IMG/VR virus record: IMGVR_UViG_3300009154_000221
Location: 1 to 27,173 of that record
Direction: 5' to 3' (one strand)
From: a virus
Length of the DNA stretch: 27,173 nt
Shown here: piece after piece, positions 2 through 26,344 of the stretch
Layout of the letters: each line of letters begins with the position of its first letter
Position numbering within the stretch: the stretch's first letter is position 1
Made by a program: the position numbers and the translations under genes
The notes under the pieces: model-generated
The model's database searches: none
Told to the model about the DNA's origin: nothing
What the model saw: the letters and a program-made list of their open reading frames with translations, nothing else

Positions 2-265
2 AATATTCCAAATGGTATTGTTACATATACTGCTACAGCAGTGGTGACTAATAACAATGTGCCGGTATTAGGTAGTAGTTATGGTTGGTATTATGCAGCC
101 GGCAATGCATTAGTACTTACATCGATACCTACACAATTTGTTGGCACATTAAACAATATCAGTAATGCTGTAGTTGCAACTACAACTGCCAATGTGTTTA
201 CATTTGGTATTACTAACAATAGCGGTGCCAACGCAGTTGTAAATTGGGGTTACACTAAATTATAA
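2..265 (+). CDS. C-terminal part of a probable virion structural protein (partial)
   Basis: The frame is open from the window edge to a TAA at 263-265, so the 5' end lies outside; a GTG at 41 is only an internal codon. The visible 87 residues are rich in Thr, Asn, Val, Ala and Gly with alternating hydrophobic and polar residues, as in beta-rich tail-fibre, baseplate or capsid-decoration proteins. It ends WGYTKL. No enzymatic motif is seen. The next gene begins 14 bases later on the same strand, suggesting a shared late structural transcript. The structural role is inferred from composition and position only. Confidence 0.55.
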   Translation, partial: NIPNGIVTYTATAVVTNNNVPVLGSSYGWYYAAGNALVLTSIPTQFVGTLNNISNAVVATTTANVFTFGITNNSGANAVVNWGYTKL

Positions 266-268
266 ATA
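261..268 (+). promoter_or_regulatory. T4-late-like promoter box TATAAATA
   Basis: An exact match to the T4 late -10 octamer TATAAATA spans the stop codon of the upstream gene and lies 11 bases before the ATG at 280. An AAGGA Shine-Dalgarno follows at 269-273. An RNA started 5-6 nt past the box would lose part of this Shine-Dalgarno, so read-through from upstream may also serve the gene. Confidence 0.4.
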
Positions 269-279
269 AAGGATGACTA

Positions 280-1125
280 ATGGCATTGAAACAAGATCCA
301 CGAACAATAATAGATACAAGTCAGGATCATACCTTCAACCCACCTGTCACCAAAAAAGTAATATCTAGGACACTTGACGACAAATTTAATTTAGTGTGGA
401 AGGCTGATAAACTAGATACTAGAGATTACAGATATCAATTAACACAAAAAATTAATCCTGATATAGTTGACCTAAGAAGTTATTGTAGTTCAATTGAAAA
501 TCAAGGTAATCTAGGTAGCTGTACCGGACAATCTATCGCAGGTGCAATTGAATTACTAAACAAACGCAATGGTAAACCAACTGATGTTAGTAGATTGTTT
601 ATATACTATTATGAACGAGTATTGCTAGGAACAGTTAACTATGATAGTGGTGCATACATTCGTGATGGCATTAAAGCAACTAATAAGTATGGGGTAAGTT
701 TAGAATCATACTGGCCATATGATATTAGAAAATTTAAACAAGAACCAATCAATGAAGCAAAGAGTGACGCATTAAATCGTAAGGTAACACGATACGAAAG
801 AGTGGAAGACTTTAATGGATGTATTGACGCATTAAGTAATGGTTATTCAGTTATCATAGGCTTCAGTGTGTATGATAGCTTTATGTCAATGAATGTTGCC
901 AAGACCGGTATGATGCCTTATCCAAACACAAAGCGTGAAAAACTATTAGGTGGACATGCAGTGTTACTTGTTGGATACGACAAAAACAAAAAAGTATTCA
1001 TTGCAAGAAACAGTTGGGGAACAGGTTGGGGCGACAGAGGTTACTTCTATATGCCGTTTCAAGTTATTCAGAATACAAATATGAGTAGCGACTTCTGGAT
1101 TATAAAGTCAGTTTCAAACCCATAA
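280..1125 (+). CDS. Papain-fold (C1A family) cysteine protease
   Basis: 281 aa. Cysteine peptidase of the papain/cathepsin fold. The oxyanion Gln and catalytic Cys are in QGNLGSCTGQS (Q75, C81), the His is in GGHAVLLVGYD (H226), and the Asn is in ARNSWGTGWGDRGYF (N244), which is the classic C1A signature in the right order and spacing. The first 60 or so residues could be a short propeptide or a virion-attachment segment; no signal peptide is visible. An AAGGA Shine-Dalgarno precedes the ATG, and a palindromic terminator follows the stop. Placed directly after a structural-type protein, it may be a virion-associated protease or act during maturation or entry. The fold and catalytic triad are seen; the target is unknown. 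Confidence 0.9.
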   Translation: MALKQDPRTIIDTSQDHTFNPPVTKKVISRTLDDKFNLVWKADKLDTRDYRYQLTQKINPDIVDLRSYCSSIENQGNLGSCTGQSIAGAIELLNKRNGKPTDVSRLFIYYYERVLLGTVNYDSGAYIRDGIKATNKYGVSLESYWPYDIRKFKQEPINEAKSDALNRKVTRYERVEDFNGCIDALSNGYSVIIGFSVYDSFMSMNVAKTGMMPYPNTKREKLLGGHAVLLVGYDKNKKVFIARNSWGTGWGDRGYFYMPFQVIQNTNMSSDFWIIKSVSNP

Positions 1126-25176: not shown

Positions 25177-25260
25177 TAAATTAGTAGTAGTTTCTATATC
25201 ACCCATTGAAACTAATAAACATTGAGAAAGAGCTTGCGTAGCAAGATTTCTATTTGTTCT

Positions 25261-25344
25261 TGGTGGAGACGGTTGGAGTTGAACCAACAGTGCCGAAGCG
25301 GAAGATTTACAGTCTCCTGGGGTTACCAATTTTCCTACATCTCC
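25261..25344 (-). tRNA. tRNA-Tyr (GTA)
   Basis: 84 nt with a long variable arm (TTCCGCTTCGGCACT area), anticodon loop CTGTAAA, acceptor GGAGATG/CGTCTCC, encoded CCA. Confidence 0.96.
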
Positions 25345-25552
25345 AAATTAGGATAAGCTACTTGTTTCCACACAAGCCCTTAATTGAGCGGTTACTCTGT
25401 CCATCTCTTTTATTCTATATGTCTGTGTGCAGAGAGATACTGCCTATCAGAGTCTGCCGGGGTAGTTTCCATCCCTGCTCTTACGGTTTTCTGCCACCGG
25501 ATCTCTATCGCTAATCAAACGCTACTTTGACGAAAGTAGTAACGGGATTCTT
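25345..25552 (-). ncRNA. Structured segment between tRNA-Glu and tRNA-Tyr
   Basis: 208 bases with no open frame. A 7-bp CTACTTT-CGTC-AAAGTAG hairpin follows tRNA-Glu, then CGGT/ACCG, GGG/CCC and CTTGT/ACAAG stems. It may be the 3' continuation of the large RNA at 25629-26067, with tRNA-Glu embedded. Confidence 0.5.
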
Positions 25553-25627
25553 TGGAAGAGCTACGGGGAATCGAACCCCGCTTGCCTGGATGAAAACCAG
25601 ATGTCCTAACCGATAGACGATAGCTCC
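25553..25627 (-). tRNA. tRNA-Glu (TTC)
   Basis: 75 nt, acceptor GGAGCTA/TAGCTCT, anticodon TTC, encoded CCA. It sits one base past the closing stem of the structured RNA and could be processed from the same transcript. Confidence 0.95.
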
Positions 25628-25628
25628 A

Positions 25629-26067
25629 TGTTATTAGTTTTGCTGACGCACTGTTTGCTATGCTCAACGGAATTGCCAGCTGGACGTACCGTTTATATAC
25701 ATAGTTACTCAGGGTTGACGTTTCCCCCATGGCTTACATCAGCAAAACTAATAACACTCTATATGAAAACACATTATGGGAACTACATTCGTCTGTCCAG
25801 GACCGTCTCCTGTACCCCGGCTTGTACACCGGGAACTCTGAACTTCGTCATTACTGCCTAACTGCCCGTCACGTTCATAACTTTCGTTATCATACGCTTC
25901 ATGATGTATGTCTTGGCGTGTATCCGTCGATACCCTTATAACCTTCGTACACCCTAACGGATCAGGTAACCCTTAATATGTTTACATATAGAGCCCTGAA
26001 CTTAACAGGGATATATGAATTCTAAATTTTAAAGAACTCTTGCAACTACTCTATCGTTTGTTGCTAT
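25629..26067 (-). ncRNA. Large ornate structured RNA (GOLLD/ROOL-like candidate)
   Basis: About 440 bases without a coding frame, starting at the promoter at 26074. Many successive perfect stems: CCCTG/CAGGG, ATATG/CATAT, GTATC/GATAC, CATAC/GTATG, a GAAA-tetraloop ATAAC/GTTAT, CCCGG/CCGGG and CAGGA/TCCTG. Then an 18-bp TGTTATTAGTTTTGCTGA closing stem (25629-25646 with 25739-25756) encloses nested CTATG/CATAG and AACGG/CCGTT. It abuts tRNA-Glu. GOLLD and ROOL RNAs are giant phage-borne RNAs near tRNAs; the class assignment is a hypothesis. Confidence 0.6.
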
Positions 26068-26073
26068 GTGTCT

Positions 26074-26102
26074 ATTATAACACCTTTACCATTTATTGTC
26101 AA
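26074..26102 (-). promoter_or_regulatory. Consensus sigma70 promoter for the structured RNA
   Basis: TTGACA, 17-base spacer, TATAAT, extension TTGACAATAAAT; start expected near 26067. Confidence 0.92.
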
Positions 26103-26155
26103 ATTCTTTTTTGTGTCTCTGTGTCCGAGAACTTGTTCAATCAATCTAAGTATCT

Positions 26156-26184
26156 ATTATAGCACCAACTTGATTTATTGTCAA
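26156..26184 (-). promoter_or_regulatory. Second, tandem sigma70 promoter
   Basis: TTGACA (26184-26179), 17-base spacer, TATAAT (26161-26156), extension TTGACAATAAAT. It lies 82 bases upstream of the promoter at 26074 and in the same direction, with nothing coding between, so the structured RNA and tRNA-Glu appear to have two starts. Confidence 0.9.
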
Positions 26185-26219
26185 ACTTTGTGTTGTTGTA
26201 TTTTTACAACACCTGTTAT

Positions 26220-26294
26220 TGGTCCGGCGTAAGGGAATCGAACCCCTATAAACACTTTAGAAGAATGTTGTCCTATCCGTTGAACGAACGCCAG
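26220..26294 (-). tRNA. tRNA-Arg (TCT)
   Basis: 75 nt, acceptor CTGGCGT/ACGCCGG, anticodon loop CTTCTAA, encoded CCA. Confidence 0.95.
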
Positions 26295-26315: not shown

Positions 26316-26344
26316 ATTATAGAGGATTGTTGATTTGTTGTCAA
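26316..26344 (-). promoter_or_regulatory. Sigma70 promoter for tRNA-Arg
   Basis: TTGACA (26344-26339), 17-base spacer, TATAAT (26321-26316), extension TTGACAACAAAT, immediately before tRNA-Arg. Confidence 0.9.

Follow-up and report, generated by a model that had tools for sequence, protein, structure and literature searches.

A structured RNA family absent from Rfam 15 that uncultured bacteriophages often carry fused to the start of a tRNA array

The 724 nucleotides that lead up to the tRNA-Tyr gene in the tRNA array of a phage (25345-26068, minus strand) are probably, at a probability of about 0.6, the head of a tRNA transcription unit that would be antiterminated in the manner of rRNA operons and that carries a new RNA family, called R1 here, which is probably released by tRNA processing. 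The window, which is the whole 27-kb stretch of DNA analysed, is an IMG/VR virus record with an array of 18 tRNAs on its minus strand. R1 is a phage non-coding RNA family that is absent from Rfam 15 and distinct from GOLLD and ROOL but shares their home. It is carried by uncultured bacteriophages, some of them very large, and is often fused to the start of a tRNA array. The original prediction had placed at 25345-26067 a gene-free, phage-borne RNA that is strongly structured, has a promoter of its own, and includes a tRNA-Glu, and both the coordinates and this description proved correct. In the direction of transcription the locus is laid out as promoters, boxA, hairpin, R1, module B, tRNA-Glu, and module C:

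26184..26156, minus strand: upstream promoter, TTGACA-17-TATAAT, 12/12, with TG before the -10
26102..26074, minus strand: proximal promoter, TTGACA-17-TATAAT, 12/12, with TG before the -10
26027..26037, minus strand: boxA GTTCTTTAAAA, a full match to the consensus GYTCTTTAANA
25985..26017, minus strand: hairpin hp1 behind boxA, whose 3' strand (25991-25985, CTATATG) doubles as the 5' strand of helix P1
25757..25995, minus strand: R1 domain of about 239 nt, 140 bits with the R1 covariance model, this copy being in the model seed
25628..25757, minus strand: module B, an 18-bp perfect closing stem (25756-25739 with 25646-25629) and inner helices, ending at the 5' end of tRNA-Glu
25553..25627, minus strand: tRNA-Glu (UUC)
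25345..25552, minus strand: module C, a conserved 208-nt element between tRNA-Glu and tRNA-Tyr
25261..25344, minus strand: tRNA-Tyr, the next gene of the array

The predicted start at a consensus promoter was borne out by two perfect promoters, and a transcript from the proximal one would begin at about 26067. The tRNA array region of the window has five perfect (12/12) sigma-70 promoters on the minus strand, at 26344, 26184, 26102, 24324, and 22852. By means of the HNH protein whose gene adjoins the array, related loci were collected from viral contigs (the best 80 of 152), many of them in the order HNH, Thr, Asn, Arg, RNA, Glu, RNA, Tyr, Asp. In an alignment of the window with 12 relatives, compensatory changes are visible, the promoter regions are conserved, and GTTCTTTAAAA is invariant a short way past the start site. 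The TTGACA of the proximal promoter is retained in all 13 sequences. The upstream promoter region is visible in 12 of the 13, the window included (the slice of L009 ends earlier), and its -10 is frequently TATACT.

The roughly 440 structured bases that had been proposed (25628-26068, 441 nt) have a minimum free energy of -138.7 kcal/mol compared to -105.6 +/- 5.2 kcal/mol for 100 dinucleotide shuffles, none of which was as good (z = -6.4). The hairpin with the GAAA tetraloop (ATAAC-GAAA-GTTAT) and the 18-bp stem immediately before tRNA-Glu are present as described. The further structured stretch suggested behind the tRNA, which is module C, fared differently by method: its single-sequence fold does not stand out (z = 0.0, 97 of 200 shuffles equally good), and comparison supports it weakly, 5 of the 43 predicted pairs having two-sided changes among 23 aligned sequences including the window (mean column identity 83%). 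Open reading frames crossing the segment are short ones only, and the covariation together with the length differences between relatives argues against coding.

R1 is a real RNA that folds into a branched domain closed by P1. The structure drawn by hand comprises 56 pairs: the closing helix P1 (25991-25975 with 25775-25759 in the window), the long-range helix P2, P3 and P4 within P2 (P4 of the window has a GAAA loop), and P5/P6 after the invariant GUAAUGA. The covariation that had been proposed as a check on homologues is strong. In an alignment of 41 divergent homologues, 86.6% of the cells are paired and two-sided changes are found in 44 of the 56 pairs; none of 500 shuffles reached the native covariation, and slid controls gave 35-46%. 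These 41 were drawn from 53 chosen sequences, and several of the 12 omitted (L074, L075, L178, L182, L183, L194, L229, L230, L233, L245, L253, L267) are divergent. Because the alignment was seeded with the exact motif GGT[CT]ACCTNNNCCGTTAGG, the 5' side of P2 is partly fixed in it. However, P2 varies on both sides in an alignment of 57 distinct rows found with the covariance model in 76 sources, which includes copies without the seed motif; here two-sided changes occur in 49 of the 56 pairs and 89.4% are paired, in an alignment that was fitted to the structure and includes a few weak partial matches. All R1 sequences come from metagenome virus contigs and none from an isolate, which might suggest a chance structure or an assembly artefact. 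This is refuted by the many separate contigs and by a covariation that shuffling did not reproduce. In the window, a covariance search with the filters off yielded 280 matches at E<=10, of which the true R1 scored 140 bits and the runner-up 20.8 bits; everything below R1 is taken as chance or low complexity.

Related loci were also gathered by a scan for the leader pattern (82 stretches) and a scan for the motif GGTYACCTNNNCCGTTAGG (at least 119 stretches), from which L221, L243, and L258 were set aside as chance-like. The motif scan showed that the inner domain of R1 is also found outside tRNA arrays, directly downstream of a promoter. The covariance model was then run on 75 virus records, selected for having the leader, the motif, or the HNH gene. 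It matched 54 of these, exactly once in 52, a copy number that is a lower bound because records may be fragments. The 21 negative records include relatives that share the boxA leader. In one of the two remaining records (G053) the match consists of two weak fragments side by side (29 bits) on a short-insert leader and is probably no true copy. The other (G075, IMGVR_UViG_3300027749_002876, with L002, L015, L084, and L086) has 524 kb, two tRNA arrays, and two R1 matches; one of its arrays is 99.9% identical to the window across the 1041 nt compared, and the record is possibly a bin of several phages. Outside the 75 records, L268 has two tandem copies (77-532, minus strand). By eye, pairing is possible between the 3' strand of P1 in its first copy and the 5' strand of P1 in its second.

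Searches by sequence yielded little. With the whole 724-nt stretch, blastn returned 492 records, and the 20 matches listed covered only tRNA-Glu and the edges; with the 121-nt 5' part it returned 31 records, weak and at E of about 1 among the 25 matches listed. Three diverse R1 copies had no blastn match at E<=0.1, the copy of L186 had none in E. coli genomes or plasmids, and the exact R1 pattern was absent from GTDB genomes. The covariance model did not find R1 in three named large phages, in a search that had no positive control.

The window also encodes two TctC-type tricarboxylate receptors (Pfam PF03401; 11737-12618 and 15456-16433), on what is a phage contig, and a papain-family cysteine protease (PF00112; 280-1125). 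A host among the Betaproteobacteria is only hinted at by the TctC receptors and the beta tmRNA model, which also matches 5 of 14 control genomes below the cut-off. A genome scan with the TctC protein of the window found no relative. The tmRNA model RF01850 matched in 18 of 21 large related records tested, in 10 of them above the cut-off, and the tmRNA genes of L180 and L182 were also matched by the permuted-tmRNA model.

The original prediction had likened the segment to GOLLD or ROOL. This identity was rejected because the Rfam models are silent on the segment outside the tRNA while the GOLLD model works in relatives. At the gathering thresholds Rfam 15 (4227 models) matched only tRNAs in the whole window, and cmscan of 25180-26220 at E<=5 gave four matches, two being the tRNAs and two sub-threshold ones on tRNA-Glu; the ROOL model (RF03087), like all other families, had no match to this region off the tRNAs. 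Rfam scans of 17 related loci at gathering, eight at E<=1, and five short-insert loci at E<=0.5 had no match on R1: tRNA or tmRNA scored above the cut-off, and the rest were sub-threshold. The ROOL model was also run on 25 relatives, with 0/25 matches and without any positive control matching. In contrast, the GOLLD model (RF02032, 416 positions, gathering threshold 150 bits) found GOLLD at 201-226 bits in eight of the 75 related records (5 of 25 large ones and 3 of 50 further ones), always as a separate element. The GOLLD-bearing records are L291-L295, G044, G051, and G059, and R1 is present too in five.

That the segment might still belong to GOLLD or ROOL, or form the less conserved 5' part of a GOLLD, is largely refuted. 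The niche is the same, namely phage tRNA islands with an HNH gene nearby, a tRNA lies within the transcript, and R1 is followed by a GOLLD of the same strand after about 0.8 kb in G003, 1.9 kb in G002, 2.7 kb in G016, and 7 kb in G059; in G019 a circular record would place it 2.8 kb downstream, a linear one at the opposite end. However, 49 of the 54 records with R1 have no GOLLD, some of them with R1 behind its own promoter and no tRNA in the few kb examined, and several tRNAs separate the two elements in G002.

GOLLD is described in PMC12286853 as a large, structured, phage-borne RNA of tRNA islands that sometimes has an internal tRNA, and R1 too is phage-borne, structured, and located in tRNA islands. 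In mycobacteria an HNH gene is reported beside GOLLD and tRNA clusters (PMC9569102), as one adjoins the tRNA array of the window. However, many GOLLD RNAs exceed 800 nt according to PMC12286853, while R1 has about 240 nt and the whole stretch 724 nt, and the two can share one array as separate elements. ROOL is likewise presented there as a phage or prophage RNA near tRNA islands with no function known (PMC12286853), a location that R1 shares. A literature search on phage structured RNAs, boxA, and RNase P leaders found nothing describing R1, and one for papers joining phage, boxA, tRNA operon, and antitermination found none; subscription papers and preprints were mostly outside the coverage of both. 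GOLLD forms a 14-subunit RNA nanocage.

The main argument for R1 being the functional molecule is that the same P1-closed unit occurs in two settings, bounded by a promoter or by tRNAs. Running the model on 168 hand-picked sources gave 152 matches, 146 of usable length and 114 non-duplicate, kinship being ignored. These 114 copies divide into 80 with a boxA-like site, 17 with a promoter only, 16 others, and one that is cut. Of the 80 copies with a boxA-like site, 75 have a tRNA no more than 250 nt downstream, and among the 84 tRNA-linked copies of all classes the gap is 12 nt or less in 47. The tRNA behind R1 is Glu, Asp, Leu, Ser, Tyr, or Met. For 15 of the 17 promoter-only copies, no more than 6 nt separate the end of the -10 from the start of R1, so the RNA would begin at or just inside P1. 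In 10 of the 17, another promoter comes next, its -10 ending at a position from 1 nt upstream to 39 nt downstream of the R1 3' boundary. The 17 include the second tandem copy of L268, which has a tRNA downstream. Some standalone loci have their own promoter and no tRNA in the few kb examined. The occurrence of R1 with a 5' promoter but away from tRNAs argues that the functional unit is R1 and not a tRNA leader.

The same settings bear on two other roles. It is very unlikely that R1 is a riboswitch-like cis-regulator of the next gene: some copies do precede small protein genes, and a binding pocket is suggested by the compact junctions, whose unpaired bases include invariant ones, but what lies downstream varies between six kinds of tRNA and small genes that often have their own promoter. 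HDV-like ribozymes are known beside phage tRNAs, a precedent that, with the branched core, the many invariant bases, and the tRNA neighbours, could point to a ribozyme that for example trims tRNA precursors. We consider this highly improbable, as no Rfam ribozyme model matches R1, the tRNA-linked copies are separated from the tRNA by anything between about 0 nt and the examined limit of 250 nt, and standalone copies have no tRNA close by.

The boxA of the window agrees with the consensus GYTCTTTAANA at 11 of 11 positions; this gammaproteobacterial consensus, based on rRNA and suhB of E. coli (PMC5725501), may not be that of the host. Exact matches are found twice in the window, one being 26027-26037. 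An exact boxA lies 25-60 nt upstream of R1 in 63 of 84 tRNA-linked copies compared to 0 of 24 others, again ignoring kinship and with six copies near contig ends dropped, while the background is 11 in 22,087 same-strand windows of 35 nt. The other 21 tRNA-linked copies have no exact boxA. An rrn-type boxA binds NusB/S10 and suppresses Rho termination. As in the rrn leaders, the site is close to tandem strong promoters and stands before a long untranslated RNA, but here this is R1 with phage tRNAs instead of rRNA, and hp1 shares a strand with a long-range helix.

Since hp1 and P1 have one strand in common, they are mutually exclusive helices. In 80 of 94 leaders the minimum free energy fold pairs at least five of the seven shared-strand bases with upstream sequence, and the loops are of the GNRA or the UUAAGUU type. 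In several lineages all three strands co-vary, for example CATATGA/TCATATG/CATATGA in L193 and AAGTAGT/ACTACTT/AAGTAGT in L256. A first test of strand sharing (113 rows, some of them false) found best 7-mer partners with 4-7 of 7 bases paired, mostly 6, where shuffled strands lead to an expectation of 5.0, and it discriminates poorly because the sequence is AT-rich and the register free. In a second test on 94 rows, 19 having been dropped as false by eye, the native strands scored 5.8/7 compared to 4.7/7 with strands swapped between classes, and 77 of the 94 were higher. This swap control gives moderate support to strand sharing. With tests of this strength, the idea of a switch rests mainly on the single rows L193, L253, L256, L051, L041, and L074, in each of which the three strands vary in concert.

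Rather than as the one giant RNA that had been expected, the segment is better described as several separable modules, each with a distribution of its own: the boxA leader, R1, module B, tRNA-Glu, and module C. Either B or C may be missing. Among 16 sequences of module B two-sided changes occur in 9 of 38 pairs. L009, L041, L067, and L161 have another module at this position downstream of P1 (in L009 with the sequence TATTATTAAGTGTTATC...). Unlike versions of the tRNA-Glu gene in the window and its relatives alternate within otherwise matching flanks, and these genes look as if they were exchanged by recombination. In 22 of the 94 leaders P1 encloses an insert of only 36-107 nt, whereas R1-sized inserts have 177-293 nt. 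Examples of short inserts are L017, where tRNA-Glu follows directly after P1, L046, L049, L051, L068, L069, L100, L123, and others; several recur across contigs and appear structured by eye. Thus, P1 behaves as a frame for interchangeable contents. As R1 is replaced by a short insert in these leaders and missing in 21 of the 75 records, it must be dispensable.

The boxA leader might also be taken to mean that R1 acts purely in cis, as a large put- or nut-like RNA that together with boxA and hp1 modifies RNA polymerase and antiterminates the downstream array. The lambda nut site and the HK022 put RNA have a boxA, a short spacer, and a hairpin with a GNRA-like loop near the start of the transcript, and the boxA, spacer, and hairpin of the leader, often with a GNRA-type loop, resemble a nut site. 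R1 is also near the start of its transcripts, and the short-insert leaders retain boxA, hp1, and P1. However, here hp1 excludes P1, and R1 is single in 52 of 54 matching records, whereas several operons would be expected to carry an element that acts in cis. In addition, 10 of the 17 promoter-only copies have another promoter at or just past their 3' end, which leaves little to antiterminate, and R1 is missing in the 22 short-insert leaders, which are otherwise similar. A purely cis-acting R1 is therefore unlikely.

According to our preferred reading, the tandem sigma-70 promoters, as judged from their sequences, would start the transcript, and boxA, about 30 nt into it, would recruit the NusB/S10 antitermination complex of the host, as on rRNA operons. 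Antitermination is suggested by a boxA that is exact and specific to its context. The polymerase could thereby pass hundreds of untranslated structured bases into the tRNAs. R1, whose branched P1-closed fold is shown by covariation, could then be freed by RNase P: where tRNAs follow, P1 or an additional stem module often abuts the 5' side of the tRNA, and RNase P cleavage there would create the 3' end of R1 as well, or a cut close to it. In the window, module B stands between R1 and the tRNA, which counts against release of R1 by RNase P. That genomes have one R1 copy speaks for action in trans, and the neighbouring tRNAs, tmRNA, and sometimes GOLLD suggest, without proof, a role in translation during infection.

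A more far-reaching version can be offered only tentatively. The P1 of the rRNA-style boxA leader may be a frame for exchangeable cassettes, R1 or unrelated short inserts, which would be freed by tRNA processing. The exchange from hp1 to P1 might signal complete transcription, and the freed RNA would act in trans on the translation machinery of the host.

Large phage RNAs of tRNA islands that have been named are few, GOLLD and ROOL, and their functions are not known (PMC12286853). To these, R1 adds a well-supported family and two sister modules on more than 100 viral contigs. As R1 occurs with and without an attached tRNA, comparison reveals where it starts and ends. The boxA offers a concrete, testable idea of how such RNAs may be transcribed. 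Given that contigs with R1 sometimes also have GOLLD, the tRNA island of phages looks like a depot of several distinct structured RNAs.
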